Shown here piece by piece: positions 9,359-16,082 of a stretch of DNA of 24,824 nucleotides. How positions within the stretch are numbered: the first letter of the stretch is position 1; every line of letters starts with the position of its first letter. Both the position numbers and the translations under genes were made by a program. The stretch is from IMG/VR virus record IMGVR_UViG_3300004805_000032, positions 1 to 24,824 of that record. One strand, 5' to 3'. A model generated the notes under the pieces. It did no database searches and had not been told where the DNA came from. It worked only from the letters and a program-made list of their open reading frames with translations. The stretch comes from a virus.

Positions 9359-10796
9359 ATTGAGTGTATGGGTTGACAAATTTTTTCTTGTTGTCGTCTG
9401 CATATGAATAGTCGCGTGCTGGTAAATAATCAAGTTGAATCCAACCTGAGTCACGCAATACACGCAACGCCTGAGACAGTGAATCAACGTAGTCATCATG
9501 ACCGCCGGCCTCTGGAAATGAACACACTTGCCTAAGAAAACGTTTGGCCCAGTCTGCAAAATCTTTCTTTTGAACGGTATCTTCTGGGATCCACACCTTG
9601 CCTTTAGCCACCAATGGTGCTACAATATTAAGACGCTGCACCTTATCAGCTCGGCCTGGATTGTATCCCCGTACCTCAATGCCTGAACTTTGAAGTTCTT
9701 GAATTAATGAGATACCCGCTGACTTATCTTCCATTAGTACCAGGTCGGCTTTACGCCCCTTACCAAAGTCGTTATCGGCACCATACACTACCTCTTTAAA
9801 GTCGTCAATGACTTTACGGCGCAGTTCTGGGTAAGCTAAGTGTGCATCCCATGCATCAAGTAAGATGACGCCTGTGTCTGAATCCTCTTGTTCAAAAATG
9901 CCCCAGATAGTGCAAGCCGTCGGGTCGTTCATTGTTTTTTCTGAAGTTGCCGGATCATATGATGCAATCACATACTCAAGCACTGGGGTTGGTTTATTAG
10001 CTGGCCACATGCGGAACTGTTTGCGTTTGATGATACCGGCTTGTTCCGGATCCAAGATCTCGCCATAAATCTCTTGGCGGCCTAGGTCTGTGCCGTCATA
10101 TGACTCTAGTTGTTTAAAGAACGTGGCTGACAGGTTGTCTTTGTTATCATAAGACGACGCGTTGACCACGTACACGTCGCCGCCCACCGTTCCCTCATTC
10201 AGATCAACGATGAGCTCTTTTGGTTTAGGTGTTGTGGTGATGATCTGCTGAACTCGAGGTATACGTGGATCTTTAAGTCGCAGCGTAAATTGCACACCGT
10301 CGTATGCTTCATCGAGATAATCAAACGCACAGAGCTCATCGAACCAGGCGCCGTGGTATTGCTTACCACGATAACGTTCTGGTTCGGACGCAGGGATTCC
10401 CTGTATGATAGACCCGTTGGTTAATGTAATTTCAAAGAGTGACTTGTTATAGTCGCGAATAAGCGACTTGGGGATGATGTTCATGAGCCCCGAGTCACCT
10501 TCAAAACAGGTTGCTCGGATGTCGTTTGACGTTGGGGCTGTGACTAACCAGCGTGTGCCCGGGTAACGCCATGCGCGAATACCGATCCAATGCGATGCTG
10601 TGTGGGTCTTGCCAGATCCCCGTCCTGCCAACATGAGGAACGTGTCATATTCCCCGTCTTCAGGTTCTTTTTGATGGGGCAGTGCTTGAAGTGCCCACTT
10701 GGTGCGCCAAATAAGCGCGTCCAGTTGATCTTTGGGCCAATGTTTTCGTGCTGCTGCAAACTTCTTTAATTCAAGTTCTTGTTGTGCTGTTAGCAT
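9357..10796 (-). CDS. terL: Terminase large subunit
   Basis: A 479-residue packaging motor with all expected parts. The ATPase has Walker A AGRGSGKT at 57-64, Walker B HGAWFDE at 148-154 and coupling motif TTT at 187-189. The RNase H-like nuclease has Asp in YDPA at 281, Glu-Asp in LMEDKSAG at 356-357 and a final acidic pair in GGHDDYVDSL at 433-437. Length is normal for the family. The start codon ATG overlaps the end of the upstream Hint gene (ATGCTAA), and a GGAGAAGGA site lies inside that gene, so the two are translationally coupled. No small terminase is recognisable in the window. It cuts concatemers and pumps DNA through the portal. Confidence 0.95.
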   Translation of the reverse strand: MLTAQQELELKKFAAARKHWPKDQLDALIWRTKWALQALPHQKEPEDGEYDTFLMLAGRGSGKTHTASHWIGIRAWRYPGTRWLVTAPTSNDIRATCFEGDSGLMNIIPKSLIRDYNKSLFEITLTNGSIIQGIPASEPERYRGKQYHGAWFDELCAFDYLDEAYDGVQFTLRLKDPRIPRVQQIITTTPKPKELIVDLNEGTVGGDVYVVNASSYDNKDNLSATFFKQLESYDGTDLGRQEIYGEILDPEQAGIIKRKQFRMWPANKPTPVLEYVIASYDPATSEKTMNDPTACTIWGIFEQEDSDTGVILLDAWDAHLAYPELRRKVIDDFKEVVYGADNDFGKGRKADLVLMEDKSAGISLIQELQSSGIEVRGYNPGRADKVQRLNIVAPLVAKGKVWIPEDTVQKKDFADWAKRFLRQVCSFPEAGGHDDYVDSLSQALRVLRDSGWIQLDYLPARDYSYADDNKKKFVNPYTQ

Positions 10797-11788
10797 ACGC
10801 TAATATATCCTTCTCCGGCTAGTATCGAGTTATCATCGCCTGTCGTCTCAATGTGAACCACCATTTGTCCAGGTATCTGATTGATTTTTTTAATATATCT
10901 TCTTGCATGGTGCACTTTTACTGGGTTTGACACTTGGTTTGGTACCAGTGTGTGCTTTGTTCTAAAACTTAACGTGTAATACCCATAGTGCGCGTCTTGT
11001 TTTACCCTAGTCCTGCACCCCAATGACTCTACGAGCCCTTGGATTTGTTGGATTGTTGGAAAATCTCCCGTTGTTATCCTAAACCAGTCGGTTTTTTTAT
11101 CATACTGCCTAGATTTTCCATTAACTAATCCAGACAAGAGCTCGACACGCTCTTCCGGTGACGCCATCAAATAATTTGTTGGTATCTTTGTTGGAATGTT
11201 TGGGGCAAGCTGCCACTCAATGTTTGGTTCTTCGTAAAATCTTTGCAGTCTGCCACGAAATGCGTTGAGTTCTGTGGTCTTATACCCTGCGTCTTTGAAT
11301 TTTTGGTAAATAAAATCTTTGGCTTCTGCATTTGCCGTGAATGTTTTGTGCGCTTTTCTATTAAAGAACCAGTATCCAAAGATAAACGGTGGTATACCAG
11401 GTGTTTGCGCTGGAAACTGAATCGGCTTGGTGGTCGGAATAGAAAATTCTTTCCTATTGTTTCTACCAAATATTCCGGTCTCTTGTATCTCTGCCACACT
11501 TAAGAATTTTAGTGGTCGTTTAAATCCATTCTTTTTGACCATCTTGTATTCGTGCAATCGTTTTCTGTACTTCTCGTTCTCTGCCCTAAATGATAACCTA
11601 GCGTCTCCGCTAATTGTCAGGTAGTCATCAAACGTTATCTCATAACAATCTTCGGCGTGGTACTGCTGAACCAAGGTAACCTGTACCGGCTTACCGTCCT
11701 TATCAAATACCCAGTCCCCCACCTCAATGTGGCGGGCGTACTTCCAATAATCCAAGGTTAATACCGATTGGGTCGCTGTGATTGCCAT
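10790..11788 (-). CDS. Degenerate intein-like (Hint/LAGLIDADG) protein next to terminase
   Basis: A 332-residue protein from the ATG at 11788, which has GGA 9 nt upstream; a longer frame from 11854 lacks such a site. Residues about 8-66 resemble intein blocks A-B (SVLTLDYWKYARHIEVGDWVF ... YLTISGDARLSF), and 310-332 resemble blocks F-G (VVHIETTGDDNSILAGEGYISVC). Key residues are missing: Ser rather than Cys at the expected first position, Ala in place of the block B His, and no His-Asn at the end. The middle resembles LAGLIDADG endonuclease blocks (FIFGYWFFN 135-143, LLSGLVNGK 217-225), but the catalytic acids are not evident. It thus looks like a free-standing, probably splicing-dead intein relative kept beside terminase. 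Its function is unknown. Confidence 0.7.
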   Translation of the reverse strand: MAITATQSVLTLDYWKYARHIEVGDWVFDKDGKPVQVTLVQQYHAEDCYEITFDDYLTISGDARLSFRAENEKYRKRLHEYKMVKKNGFKRPLKFLSVAEIQETGIFGRNNRKEFSIPTTKPIQFPAQTPGIPPFIFGYWFFNRKAHKTFTANAEAKDFIYQKFKDAGYKTTELNAFRGRLQRFYEEPNIEWQLAPNIPTKIPTNYLMASPEERVELLSGLVNGKSRQYDKKTDWFRITTGDFPTIQQIQGLVESLGCRTRVKQDAHYGYYTLSFRTKHTLVPNQVSNPVKVHHARRYIKKINQIPGQMVVHIETTGDDNSILAGEGYISVC

Positions 11789-11799
11789 TAATATATTCC

Positions 11800-11817
11800 A
11801 GACAAAATACTTTGTCT
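11800..11817 (-). promoter_or_regulatory. Hairpin before the Hint gene
   Basis: A perfect 7-bp stem (minus strand AGACAAA-GTAT-TTTGTCT) lies 11 nt before the ATG at 11788 and directly abuts the ribosome-binding region. It could modulate translation. Upstream, TTGCTT-16 nt-TATTAA is a weak candidate promoter for the Hint-terminase unit, which the pqqA terminator would otherwise cut off. Confidence 0.4.
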
Positions 11818-11848
11818 TTAATAAAACGCAAAATATTACAAGCAAACT

Positions 11849-11868
11849 ATGCACCCCGAAGGGTGCAT
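11849..11868 (-). terminator. UUCG-tetraloop hairpin after pqqA
   Basis: An eight-bp perfect stem, ATGCACCC-TTCG-GGGTGCAT on the minus strand, giving the extra-stable C(UUCG)G tetraloop only in this orientation. It begins 6 nt after the pqqA stop codon. The T tract after it is weak (AGTTTGCTTG), so it may act as an mRNA 3' stabiliser as much as a terminator. Confidence 0.65.
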
Positions 11869-12114: not shown

Positions 12115-12367
12115 GTACCCCTTTGTACCCCTTTGCAAAAAGAAGTGTGACAATCCAATGCAATCAACAATTTACAGCACAACAATGCGGGTTTGCGGCC
12201 GATTTGATGTTAGTGACCGCTAACCTGCCGACCCGCTTGTACCAAGGTTGAGTACCCCTTGTCACACTTGTCACACTTCTTTTTACTTTTTTAATTTTTT
12301 TTAATAAAATAAAAAGAGATACAAGGGAGAATAAAGTGAGAACAAGTGTGACAAGTGTGACGAAGTG
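12115..12367. repeat. Left arm of 253-bp long inverted repeat
   Basis: This 253-bp block recurs in reverse complement at 20017-20269 with the same length and, by eye, about 80% identity. It starts GTACCCCTTTGTACCCCTTTG and ends with AAGTGTGACAAGTGTGAC. Within it, iterons AAGTGTGACA lie at 12143, 12344 and 12353, with inverted copies at 12260 and 12269 flanking an A/T-rich centre. GTACCCC repeats lie at the outer end. No ORF is supported here. It may be an origin, an operator array or a recombination site. Confidence 0.9.
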
Positions 12368-12394
12368 ATTTAAATCAATGACTTACAAGCAAAG

Positions 12395-12436
12395 AAGTGT
12401 GACAATTTTTAAAAAAAAAAAATTTTAAGTGTGACA
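12395..12436 (+). repeat. Two further AAGTGTGACA iterons
   Basis: Copies of AAGTGTGACAA at 12395 and 12427, 32 bp (three helical turns) apart, flank an A-run and lie outside the long inverted repeat. This gives seven copies on this side of the early module and supports binding by a dedicated protein. Confidence 0.75.
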
Positions 12437-12545
12437 ATTGCCAGGTTGGGCTGGATTATAAGAACTGGTTTTCTTTGGGGCCCCCGCCCCGCCGCCCTCC
12501 GATGGTACCTAAAAGGGGTGATGCGATAAAGAAAAAGCCCCCCTA

Positions 12546-12620: not shown

Positions 12621-12692
12621 TAATGAGAATCATTCGCATCTAGGTGAGGCGCTTGATTGGTACGCTCACCTAGATGCGAATGATTCTCATTA
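12621..12692. repeat. Perfect 28-bp inverted repeat with Fur-box-like arms
   Basis: The arms 12621-12648 and 12665-12692 are exact reverse complements around a 16-nt loop. Each arm contains TGAGAATCATTCGCA, matching 11 of 14 positions of the Fur half-site pattern TGATAAT-N-ATTATCA. The structure could extrude as a cruciform, form a very stable RNA hairpin, or serve as paired operators. There is no T tract, so it is not a standard terminator. Confidence 0.8.
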
Positions 12693-12792: not shown

Positions 12793-12876
12793 TGTGGTGG
12801 ATAGGCGTGTGCGAGGGTGCTAGGGTGGTGGATAGCGTAAAGACCTCTCGACATCGGACAGTCAGCACCCCATTTC

Positions 12877-13047
12877 TGTGGATAACTCTGACAAAGTTAT
12901 CCACAAACCGTCCACAAGATATCCACAGAATAGTACACAGCATATCCACAGGCATACCTTGGTACTGGTATTCAGAATTAATAAAGTGGCTCAAAACGCG
13001 TTAAAATGCGTCCTAGAGGCATGTCATTTTGCCAATCCTGTGGATAA
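12877..13047. other. Putative replication origin: DnaA-box cluster
   Basis: Perfect DnaA boxes (TTATCCACA or its complement) lie at 12877-12885, 12897-12905 and 13039-13047. Near-perfect ATATCCACA copies lie at 12919-12927 and 12942-12950. The first and last sit in an identical 15-bp context, CTGTGGATAACTCTG. Five boxes in 171 bp of non-coding DNA, with repeats to the left and the divergent gene switch around them, indicate a host DnaA-dependent origin. The unwinding region is not identified; an A/T-rich tract follows at about 12975-13000. Confidence 0.7.
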
Positions 13048-13073
13048 CTCTGCGATTCTACGGTTTGATAGTT

Positions 13074-13100: not shown

Positions 13101-13192
13101 CAGAACTGAAATAATTTAGAGGCATCGCATAATGTAGTATGAAGACTGTAGTAAAGAAGTTCCCGAAACCACCTATTTAGAGGATGCAAACC

Positions 13193-13429
13193 ATGACAAC
13201 AGTACAACAATTAATCGATGCACTACAAAAGGTCGAAGACAAAAACGGCGCAGTCGAAATCGCAGTAAGCTTTCAGGATGGATATCCAATATATGCGGAC
13301 ATTGTGCCGAATGTATGGGATAACATTTTAGTCAACAGTCCATGGGGAAGCATCCGTATTCTTGCGGATGTCAAGCCGGCATCATTGGTGACTCATTACG
13401 CAGTACGTGAGATGAAAAACAAAGCTTAA
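13193..13429 (+). CDS. Small early protein, unknown (78 aa)
   Basis: The start is MTTVQQLIDALQKVEDKNG. The earlier in-frame ATG at 13184 is part of the recurring leader GAGGATGCAAACC and is taken as ribosome-binding sequence, because the same leader precedes four other genes. The protein has an N-terminal helix, then strands, and WGSIRILADVKP. The stop TAA lies inside helix I of hammerhead ribozyme 1. No family is recognised. Confidence 0.6.
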   Translation: MTTVQQLIDALQKVEDKNGAVEIAVSFQDGYPIYADIVPNVWDNILVNSPWGSIRILADVKPASLVTHYAVREMKNKA

Positions 13430-13477
13430 CTGATGAGACCTCAATGGTCGAAACCGGCAGAGATGCCGGTCTTAAGC
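13424..13477 (+). ncRNA. Hammerhead ribozyme 1 (type I)
   Basis: The full core is present in order: helix I strand GCTTAA (13424-13429), CTGATGA (13430-13436), helix II GACC/GGTC with loop TCAAT, GAA (13450-13452), helix III ACCGGC/GCCGGT with a 6-nt loop, C17 at 13471, helix I return strand TTAAGC (13472-13477). Cleavage is expected after 13471 at a GUC triplet. All pairs are Watson-Crick. The upstream stop codon lies in helix I, and the cut falls 30 nt before the next ATG. Confidence 0.92.
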
Positions 13478-13501: not shown

Positions 13502-13693
13502 ATGACAATACACGTAGACCACAAACCAATAGCAGTATGCTATGTCGACACAATCGGCAAGAAGCTTCGTGCCTTCTTCGGCACGGACTCAATTGACAAT
13601 GCTATGAAAATAGCAAAAGACCACAAGAGCGCATTCGGCACAATGATTGTGCTAGATGTCGCCACATCAACAATTATCGCCACAGTTAAATAG
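13502..13693 (+). CDS. Small early protein, unknown (63 aa)
   Basis: Starts MTIHVDHKPIAVCYVDTIGK after AACCTAAAAGGATGCAAACC. The ATG at 13493 inside GGATGCA is rejected for the reason given for the gene before. It is a mixed alpha/beta protein with GTMIVLDVATSTIIATVK at the end. It is the first gene behind ribozyme 1 and has a 30-nt leader after cleavage. Function unknown. Confidence 0.55.
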   Translation: MTIHVDHKPIAVCYVDTIGKKLRAFFGTDSIDNAMKIAKDHKSAFGTMIVLDVATSTIIATVK

Positions 13694-13704
13694 GACACGA
13701 CACC

Positions 13705-13932
13705 ATGAACATACAAGCAATCATCGTAAACGGCAATGACTACCACCCAATAGCGCTTAAAGACGTGAAAGCCGGCGAATTCGTAGTACGCAAAGCCGGC
13801 GCTAAAACAGTATTCACTCGAGGCGATTATGACCGTGCCTCCAAGACATACGCTCTTGACGACTACAATGAGCATTGTCGTCAGGTCTTTTTAAAAGGCT
13901 CTACCATCGTTTACATCGGTTTTTCATACTAG
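13705..13932 (+). CDS. Small early protein, unknown (75 aa)
   Basis: A mostly beta protein: MNIQAIIVNGNDYHPIALKD at the start, then GEFVVRKAGAKTVFTRGDYD and a hydrophobic end STIVYIGFSY. The pattern of strands with regularly spaced basic residues would suit a small nucleic-acid-binding or SH3-like barrel, but this is a guess. A weak site (GGACACGACACC) precedes the ATG. Confidence 0.55.
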   Translation: MNIQAIIVNGNDYHPIALKDVKAGEFVVRKAGAKTVFTRGDYDRASKTYALDDYNEHCRQVFLKGSTIVYIGFSY

Positions 13933-13943
13933 GAGGCAATACC

Positions 13944-14132
13944 ATGACAACAATCGAATTGATTAGACTCGCGACTGACGAGCTCAAAGCGGACAACGAC
14001 TGCGCCGAAGCCAAAGCCAAAGCATTGGCACAGGCACAGAGCGCTAGACTGCGTGAGAGGCACGAACGTTTAAGGGCATACCTCAACGCAACGACCGGCG
14101 TTACACTCTTCAACAAGCTTGAGATTAACTGA
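13944..14132 (+). CDS. Small helical early protein, unknown (62 aa)
   Basis: The start at 13944 is chosen because AGGAGG lies 7 nt upstream. The protein is a single long Ala/Arg/Glu-rich helix (ADNDCAEAKAKALAQAQSAR, then LRERHERLRAYL), probably a coiled coil. Its stop codon TGA (14130-14132) is part of the CTGATGA catalytic core of ribozyme 2, an unusual coding/ribozyme overlap. Function unknown. Confidence 0.6.
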   Translation: MTTIELIRLATDELKADNDCAEAKAKALAQAQSARLRERHERLRAYLNATTGVTLFNKLEIN

Positions 14133-14174
14133 TGAGACCTCAATGGTCGAAACCGACGTGAGTCGGTCTTAATC
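14123..14174 (+). ncRNA. Hammerhead ribozyme 2 (type I)
   Basis: Helix I GATTAA (14123-14128) with return TTAATC (14169-14174); core CTGATGA (14129-14135); helix II GACC/GGTC with loop TCAAT; GAA (14149-14151); helix III ACCGAC/GTCGGT with loop GTGA; C17 at 14168. Compared with ribozyme 1, helices I and III have changed on both strands while the core is identical, which is covariation. The helix I strand and half of the core overlap the end of the upstream gene. The cut is 30 nt before the next ATG. Confidence 0.92.
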
Positions 14175-14482: not shown

Positions 14483-14500
14483 GGGAGGCAGATGCCTCCC
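14483..14500 (+). promoter_or_regulatory. 5'-leader hairpin of ardC
   Basis: GGGAGGC-AGAT-GCCTCCC, a perfect 7-bp GC-rich stem. It takes the place in the gene-to-gene cassette that hammerhead ribozymes take elsewhere, directly before the common leader AACCTAAAAGGATGCAATA. It would cap the 5' end of the ardC mRNA, or act as a weak terminator of the previous unit (no T tract). Confidence 0.6.
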
Positions 14501-14525: not shown

Positions 14526-15368
14526 ATGACAAACCAATACCAAGCAATTACAGACACCATCATCAAGGCGCTCGAGTCAGGATCAGCGCCATGGGTGAAA
14601 CCATGGAATGCGACGACATCCGGTCTCGATCGCAATGTCGTCACAGACCGTCAGTACAACGGCATTAATCGCCTATTACTCGGGATGCAAGGTCGCACGT
14701 CGCCATTGTGGGCGACGTATAACCAATGGCAATCAATCGGCGCTCAAGTACAAAAAGGCGAGAAGTCGACGACCATTGTGCTATTCAAACCGGTCAGTAA
14801 AGAGCGCACGAATAGCGACGGCGAGACCGAGGTATCATCATTCGCCATGATGAAAAGCTTTGCCGTATTCAATGCTGACCAAACAGACTACCAAGCGCCA
14901 TCCATCGAGCTCGGCGAATTCAATTCGATCGCACAATGCGAAGAGCGCATGATCAAGACCGGCGCAATAATCAATCATGGCGGCGATTCAGCATTCTATC
15001 ATCCATCGACCGATAGCATCCGACTCCCGATCCCAAGTGATTTTGAGAGCGAGGCATCATACTATGCGACGGCATTCCATGAGCTCGCTCACTGGACTGG
15101 CGCAAAACATCGCCTAGACCGTACCTTTGGCGCTCGCTTTGGCGACTCACAGTATGCGCTCGAAGAGCTCGTCGCAGAATTGACTAGCGCTTTTTTGTGT
15201 GCAGATCATCACATCGACGGAAAGCTTCAGCACACAAACTACATCGCATCATGGTTAAAAGCGCTTAAGGACGATAACCAAGCGATCTTCAAGGCATCAG
15301 CGCTCGCTCAAAAGGCATCCGATTACCTGTTGACATTGGATGTTCAAAAGCAGAAAATGGTGGCTTAA
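14526..15368 (+). CDS. ardC: ArdC-like antirestriction protein (ssDNA-binding domain + metallopeptidase-like domain)
   Basis: A 280-residue protein with two parts. Residues 1-about 130 form the DUF1738/ArdC N-terminal domain that binds single-stranded DNA, with the usual SAPWVKPW and YNGINRLLL motifs (19-27, 44-52) and the YNQWQSIGAQVQKGEKST segment. Residues about 150-280 are a zincin-like domain with HELAH at 185-189, HRLDR and EELVAEL (213-219, likely third ligand). ArdC proteins of plasmids and phages protect incoming DNA against restriction enzymes, and their peptidase motif is conserved. The gene has its own promoter and 5' hairpin, and ribozyme 3 follows its stop by 4 nt. Early expression fits a role in the first minutes of infection. 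Confidence 0.9.
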   Translation: MTNQYQAITDTIIKALESGSAPWVKPWNATTSGLDRNVVTDRQYNGINRLLLGMQGRTSPLWATYNQWQSIGAQVQKGEKSTTIVLFKPVSKERTNSDGETEVSSFAMMKSFAVFNADQTDYQAPSIELGEFNSIAQCEERMIKTGAIINHGGDSAFYHPSTDSIRLPIPSDFESEASYYATAFHELAHWTGAKHRLDRTFGARFGDSQYALEELVAELTSAFLCADHHIDGKLQHTNYIASWLKALKDDNQAIFKASALAQKASDYLLTLDVQKQKMVA

Positions 15369-15372
15369 ATCA

Positions 15373-15424
15373 GTCGTACTGACGATCGCTGAATGCGTGA
15401 AACCGGCATCTGCCGGTATACGAC
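15373..15424 (+). ncRNA. Hammerhead ribozyme 3 (type I, variant)
   Basis: Helix I GTCGTA (15373-15378) with return TACGAC (15419-15424), again perfectly paired but of new sequence; core CTGACGA (15379-15385), differing only at the tolerant position 7; helix II CGC/GCG with loop TGAAT but a U-U mismatch next to the core; GAA (15399-15401); helix III ACCGGC/GCCGGT with loop ATCT; A17 at 15418 (GUA triplet). It should cleave after 15418, 28 nt before the next ATG. The helix II mismatch may slow it. Confidence 0.82.
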
Positions 15425-15446
15425 AAACCTAAAAGGATGCAATACC

Positions 15447-16082
15447 ATGACAATAACATCAGTAATTCAATTCGTACCAAAGCTTTCAAAACCAAAAAAG
15501 ATGCCGTGCCACACGTTTAGTACTCCAGCACAGGCATGTATCACAGGATCAAAACTCGCCAAGGTCAAGGGATCAGTTTGTTTCGACTGCTATGCTAAAA
15601 AAGGCAATTATCATTTCCCTAATGTGAAAGCGCCTCGAGTCCATAATCTTGGACTTATTCAGTCCGATCTAGTCGCATGGTCAGCATCGATGATCGAGTC
15701 CATCCGTACCAATGAAAAGACCGGTTTCTTTAGGTGGCACGATTCCGGCGACCTACAAAGCTTTGATCATTTAATCGCCATCATCAGCATTGCCAATGCA
15801 TTGCCACAGATCAAATTTTGGATTCCTACCAAAGAGAAGGCATTCATTGCCAAGCTTAAGCGCTCTGATATCAGCGTGCCGGCAAATTTAGCGATCCGCC
15901 TATCGATGCCAATGGTCGACCAAGCGCCGATCACATCGACATGGGCGCTCACATCCACAGTACACCAAAAAGCAGAGGCATTCGGCATGTCGTGCAATGC
16001 GTACCAAAACGACGGCAAGTGTGGTGTCTGCCGTGCATGTTGGAATACAGACATCGCCAATATCTCATATCCAAAACACTAA
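15447..16082 (+). CDS. GP88-like cysteine-rich phage protein
   Basis: A 211-residue protein. The start at 15447 follows the common leader CCTAAAAGGATGCAATACC. Eight cysteines lie at 21, 31, 45, 48, 183, 192, 195 and 198, in the patterns CFDCYAKKGNY and CGVCRACW, with RWHDSGDLQS at 96-105 between them. This layout matches the phage family known as GP88, whose function is not established. The Cys groups could bind zinc or an iron-sulfur cluster. It follows ardC and ribozyme 3 and precedes the tiny-gene run. Assignment to GP88 is from pattern memory. Confidence 0.65.
   Translation: MTITSVIQFVPKLSKPKKMPCHTFSTPAQACITGSKLAKVKGSVCFDCYAKKGNYHFPNVKAPRVHNLGLIQSDLVAWSASMIESIRTNEKTGFFRWHDSGDLQSFDHLIAIISIANALPQIKFWIPTKEKAFIAKLKRSDISVPANLAIRLSMPMVDQAPITSTWALTSTVHQKAEAFGMSCNAYQNDGKCGVCRACWNTDIANISYPKH

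Follow-up and report, generated by a model that had tools for sequence, protein, structure and literature searches.

The window, by which we mean the whole 24.8-kb stretch of DNA analysed here, is a virus record from a tailed phage whose structural genes run leftward and whose replication and accessory genes run rightward. Three type I hammerhead ribozymes, all on the plus strand, lie near the beginning of the rightward operon, within its first 2.3 kb. In order along this strand come a small ORF (13184–13429), ribozyme 1 (13424–13477), three further small ORFs (13502–13693, preceded by an AAGGA ribosome-binding-site-like motif, 13705–13932 and 13944–14132), ribozyme 2 (14123–14174), an ORF with a 99% identical protein in the close relative L066 (14199–14462), an ArdC-type antirestriction gene that combines an ArdcN domain with a zincin-like metallopeptidase (14526–15368), ribozyme 3 (15373–15424) and a GP88-family gene (15447–16082), for which the mechanical ORF start at 15393 falls within ribozyme 3.

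Several other elements flank or interrupt this arrangement. Between the divergent operons lie a nest of TTGTCACACTT inverted repeats (12259–12440) and a perfect 28-bp inverted repeat (12621–12692); microRNA matches from Rfam at 12245–12377 were rejected as a phage inverted repeat, all of them below the cut-off. Just before the ribozyme operon, 12870–13050 holds three exact copies of the DnaA-box-like TTATCCACA and two with one mismatch, and is a possible replication origin; counted across the whole window, the total does not exceed chance, but the exact copies are confined to this interval. On the minus strand, 10790–11854 is an intein-like free-standing ORF with a weak Hom_end match that ends in SILAGEGYISVC, matches a terminase PHROG and overlaps at its end the beginning of a terminase gene that is apparently complete. 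A stable GGGAGGC/GCCTCCC hairpin (14483–14500) separates ORF 14199 from the ArdC gene; it has a counterpart in the related locus L006, where ArdC is absent, and is perhaps another kind of junction element.

The three ribozymes of the window

Read directly, ribozyme 1 consists of the helix I strand GCTTAA (13424–13429), the core CTGATGA (13430–13436), helix-loop II with GACC and GGTC around TCAAT (13437–13449), GAA (13450–13452), helix-loop III with ACCGGCA and TGCCGGT around GAGA (13453–13470), C17 (13471) of a GUC site with the predicted cut at 13471/13472, and the second helix I strand TTAAGC (13472–13477). All strictly conserved hammerhead nucleotides are there, and helix I is open-ended, which makes the topology type I. 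A preliminary description had recognized these elements in this order with perfectly paired helices; the order and the pairing hold, and helix III proves to be a 7-bp stem closed by the GAGA loop, not the 6 bp of ACCGGC/GCCGGT given there. The same description placed the upstream stop codon in one strand of helix I, and the TAA that terminates ORF 13184–13429 (13427–13429) indeed forms the inner half of the helix I 5′ strand. RNA folding returns the hammerhead structure at z = −4.1, with none of 200 shuffles equally stable.

The Rfam type I model, to which the preliminary description looked for confirmation, gave a divided answer: RF00163 aligns to ribozyme 1 at all 45 positions (E = 0.011 against all of Rfam and 2.5e-6 as a single family), at a score of 26.7 bits that lies under the gathering score of 34. 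Ribozyme 2, at 20.4 bits, likewise falls outside curated membership (at least 34 bits). We attribute the shortfall to the cut-off and not to ribozyme 1, because a search at the gathering threshold reported no hammerhead in any of the 12 further loci examined, all of which bear ribozymes. When 63 homologues from other loci were used to build a covariance model, with the window excluded, ribozyme 1 scored 69 bits (E = 1.4e-16). By every sequence criterion, 13424–13477 is a type I hammerhead.

Scanning the window with this model gave exactly three matches above noise, the next best having E = 1.1; the preliminary description had overlooked the other two. Ribozyme 2 (E = 4.5e-18; predicted cut 14168/14169) first surfaced in the single-family Rfam search, and the U4-G5-A6 of its core (14130–14132) is the stop codon of ORF 13944–14132. 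It has the core and helix II in common with ribozyme 1 and differs from it by compensated changes in helices I and III. Ribozyme 3 (E = 3.1e-11; predicted cut 15418/15419) was undetected by RF00163 and was exposed by alignment to relatives; it begins 4 nt past the TAA of the ArdC-type gene and has A17 in place of C17. The pair 10.1-11.1 that closes helix II at the core is normally G-C in hammerheads, as it is in ribozymes 1 and 2, and is replaced by a U-U mismatch in ribozyme 3. Such U10.1-U11.1 pairs are a natural hammerhead variant, as described in the available text of PMC3088659. All three copies carry the core C3 U4 G5 A6 N7 G8 A9, G12 A13 A14, A15.1-U16.1 and H17, and all have the three helices, open-ended helix I and covariation support of the type I class.

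A hammerhead family across phages

Because an Rfam family search of 79 related records recovered almost no ribozymes, we wrote a structural scanner, and assembled a set by scanning relatives and viral-contig pattern matches. The set comprises at least 590 distinct type I ribozymes at no fewer than 370 loci, and its architecture is uniform: among the matches listed, 529 of 590 have a helix I of exactly 6 bp and 569 of 590 a helix-loop II of 12–13 nt. When sites were chosen by core and helix II only, 157 of the 183 among the matches listed were complete type I ribozymes, and another 17 fitted type III. Of 124 pattern-matched sites with a 4-nt loop II, 47 fit the type III arrangement (among the matches listed), so that hammerheads of type III are also common in phages.

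Could the structure at 13424–13477 be a relic or chance fold with no function, such as a terminator-like hairpin? The scanner returned no match in 17 Mb of dinucleotide-shuffled sequence, and 99.3% of helix cells are paired as against 30–36% when the alignment is slid, the helices having been partly selected for; the tertiary pair described below covaries as well. Upstream ORFs of at least 60 codons that end at a ribozyme lie on the same strand in 363 of 463 cases and on the opposite strand in 30 (among the matches listed). No intrinsic terminator, that is, a G+C-rich stem followed by a U run, or any terminator-like site was found at the ribozymes on this strand. Chance is not a tenable origin for ribozyme 1 given the covariation, the strict orientation and the hundreds of phage loci in which such elements recur, in agreement with the earlier judgement that a chance origin was very unlikely, and a functionless structure is exceedingly improbable.

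The family is clearly enriched in viruses: a bacterial-genome scan gave 8 matches in 257 Gb with a pattern stricter than in the viral scans, a difference in strictness that keeps these scans from giving the size of the enrichment. Only 9 of 79 primase-related loci have a clear copy in the available sequence, a point against the self-processing proposed below, though many of these loci are fragments. Single records carry up to nine ribozymes. The Aliivibrio MAG contig L319 and the record behind L109 each hold eight or nine hammerheads within a few kb, and all eight in L319 have the helix I 3′ strand TTAATC. Among cultured phages, Flavobacterium phage elemoA has one copy (MT497017.1, 17287–17350, minus strand, E = 1e-11), at a site where the opposite strand is annotated as a hypothetical protein. 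It is the one cultured lineage confirmed to have a ribozyme; searching cultured phages by blastn with individual ribozymes proved too insensitive, and the nearest cultured terminase or primase relatives gave no ribozyme (79 related records, other models).

Predicted tertiary contact, codon placement and shared leaders

Covariation links the final base of loop II to the base that immediately follows helix I on the 3′ side, which leads us to predict a loop II docking contact, represented in ribozyme 1 by U13445 and A13478. This pair played no part in sequence selection, and among the matches listed it is of Watson-Crick type in 502 of 569 ribozymes (U-A in 398, A-U in 92, G-C in 12), as against 335 expected if the two positions were independent; exceptions are mostly G with A. 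Its mutual information is 0.80, with a shuffle maximum of 0.05. Kinship among the sequences inflates such covariation statistics, yet in eight loci the pair type switches among the copies of a single locus. A second set, collected later, behaves alike, with Watson-Crick pairs in 272 of 307 where 219 are expected (among the matches listed). The covariation implies that loop II would dock on the end of helix I, so that the loop II contact with the helix I side characteristic of type I is present as judged by covariation.

In 511 of 514 cases among the matches listed, the stop codon of the upstream gene comes before the cut, so reading frames would stay intact after cleavage; in 255 of 514 it falls within helix I or the core, with peaks at a few fixed positions. 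The ribozyme 5′ edge closes 1.57 frames on average, as against 0.5–0.9 in controls, and the next ATG lies at a median of 25 nt beyond the cut. The window samples three solutions, with the stop supplied by the helix I UAA of ribozyme 1, by the core of ribozyme 2 and by the TAA just ahead of ribozyme 3. A ribosome terminating at a stop in helix I or the core would cover that region, and might thereby mask the ribozyme and delay its folding, making cleavage depend on translation of the upstream gene. The 255 embedded stops (of 514, among the matches listed) are what such a translation-coupled switch would lead one to expect; the remaining half, however, lie outside helix I and the core, and the embedded stop may be simple economy, since the UGA present in every core shuts one reading frame at no cost. 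We consider the switch unlikely.

Copies within one phage resemble each other in helix I far more than in the other stems. In same-phage pairs whose helix III has diverged, identity in helices II and III equals the between-genome background, whereas normalised identity is 0.54–0.62 in helix I, falls to 0.32, 0.20 and 0.11 in successive 6-nt blocks of the downstream leader, and is 0.07 and 0 in the upstream flank. This sharing was seen first in the older set and is stronger in the later one (helix I versus III, Wilcoxon p = 1.6e-7). Since the leader follows helix I and the upstream flank does not, the conserved part is the stretch with which the downstream message would begin after processing, and the helix I 5′ strand would thus be kept through pairing with the conserved 3′ strand. 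An apparent excess of conservation in the 3′ over the 5′ strand of helix I (42 versus 3 loci, sign test) was discarded as an artefact, the two backgrounds being slightly unequal; in raw numbers the difference is 16 versus 4 loci (p = 0.01), which is weak evidence. Sharing is a tendency and not a rule, because the window's own three copies do not fully share helix I: ribozymes 1 and 2 differ at one pair, and ribozyme 3 differs widely.

Candidate causes of the sharing are a common leader function, a role as cassette connector, or compatibility for ligation. The 5′-terminal hexamer and leader that hammerhead-processed messages of one phage tend to share may be held by selection while the rest of each ribozyme drifts, serving as a tag or connector, specific to the phage, by which processed mRNAs are standardised, joined or marked; we advance this tentatively, as possible but doubtful.

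Ligation would matter if two ribozymes released the gene between them and its ends were then joined again, giving a circular or a spliced message. Rejoining comes into consideration because the leader at the 5′ end of one cleavage product is able to base-pair with helix I of the ribozyme that follows: among the matches listed, leader and next 5′ strand can pair at 6 of 6 positions in 108 of 220 successive ribozymes, over a background of about 6% for ribozymes drawn at random from different genomes, and extended hammerheads can ligate (PMC6155905). Yet equal sharing is expected if selection acts on the leader only, ribozymes 1 and 2 of the window pair at just 5 of 6 positions and do not have the helix I of ribozyme 3, and circular or spliced products were sought and not detected in the work reported in the available text of PMC3088659. 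Circular or re-joined mRNAs are, in our estimation, very unlikely.

As cassette connectors, ribozyme and leader would form the seams at which phages exchange gene cassettes by recombination, with cleavage keeping imported genes independent. The genome-specific helix I and leader would suit this role, inter-ribozyme gene content varies among relatives, the neighbours are mostly small unknown genes, and ribozyme 3 has a close relative in L066 in a different gene context. Phage early accessory regions are nonetheless variable even without ribozymes. Exchange of this kind is possible, if doubtful, and it is compatible with self-processing, not exclusive of it. At the ArdC–GP88 junction itself (L066 3559–3665, corresponding to window 15368–15447), L066 is without a ribozyme, so the ribozyme is not essential for these two genes. 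ArdC domains match 2–3 of 150 ribozyme neighbours and GP88 is commoner (among the matches listed); a link of phage hammerheads to antirestriction genes is suggestive only.

Proposed self-processing of phage messages and known hammerheads

We propose that ribozyme 1 is one of three type I hammerheads through which an early polycistronic mRNA processes itself between cistrons, a reading to which we assign a probability of roughly 0.78. The three would be transcribed from the promoter-proximal end of the rightward early operon. As the polycistronic RNA emerges, each hammerhead would fold, with loop II docking on the base that directly follows helix I on its 3′ side, and would cleave after nucleotide 17. 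The upstream message would retain its own stop, whether this lies within helix I, within the core or slightly ahead of the ribozyme, and would end in two hairpins and a 2′,3′-cyclic phosphate; the downstream message would begin with a 5′-OH and the 6-nt helix I remnant, followed by its ribosome-binding site. One transcript would so yield separate, complete mRNAs for small accessory genes, the ArdC antirestriction gene included. Judging from general RNA biology, both processed ends might resist common decay routes. The ribozymes' structure, covariation and orientation, and the placement of stops and starts, are read from the sequence itself; transcription as a single RNA, cleavage, and any effects on stability or translation are inferred.

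By one account (PMC6155905), the role of phage hammerheads is an open question. Annotation at the Rfam threshold misses this class. The window's phage belongs to a large, mostly unannotated hammerhead family in which one long transcript could divide itself into complete messages. The uniform architecture is countable, each ribozyme being tied to one gene's stop and the next gene's start, and the set supplies a predicted tertiary contact open to mutation and a shared 5′ leader that needs explanation. In elemoA, which grows on Flavobacterium sp. BAL314, it also supplies a cultured phage where cleavage is testable during infection.

This kind of arrangement is already known, because clustered, gene-flanking phage hammerheads, with cleavage, have been published. 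As the available text of Perreault et al. 2011 (PMC3088659) describes, hammerheads cluster beside genes in phages and prophages, with ardA among the neighbours; tandem prophage copies cleave in vitro and in E. coli, and processing of long phage transcripts was proposed for them. Our set resembles theirs in having several hammerheads between small phage genes, U10.1-U11.1 variants and an antirestriction neighbour, ardA there and ArdC in the window. The main text of that study does not use the term stop codon, and its available parts report no fixed stop placement, no single covarying loop II–leader pair and no genome-specific helix I. Set against a literature searched mostly outside subscription journals, the compact design with a 6-bp helix I and one tertiary pair, the embedded stop and the sharing of leaders look new.

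Ribozyme 1 shares with Rfam RF00163 (Hammerhead_1) the core, the helix order and an open helix I over all 45 model positions; the window's copies differ from it in a 6-bp helix I without internal loop and in scores that, for ribozymes 1 to 3, run from 26.7 and 20.4 bits to undetected against a cut-off of 34. Fast natural hammerheads likewise dock loop II at helix I, the phage set apparently doing so by a minimal, one-pair route. The type I hammerhead of Schistosoma mansoni has the same topology and a loop II that touches the helix I side; there, however, the contact is a mostly non-canonical pair network with peripheral stem I elements (PMC6155905), whereas in the phage set stem I stops after 6 bp, and loop II has as its partner the nearest unpaired base on the 3′ side, the two covarying in Watson-Crick fashion. 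In pairing a loop with a 3′ tail through Watson-Crick tertiary contacts, the phage set recalls the type II and pseudoknot hammerheads described in the available texts of PMC3088659 and PMC11300833; type II ribozymes differ in opening another helix, and several tertiary pairs are typical of the type II and pseudoknot forms where the phage ribozymes appear to use a single one.
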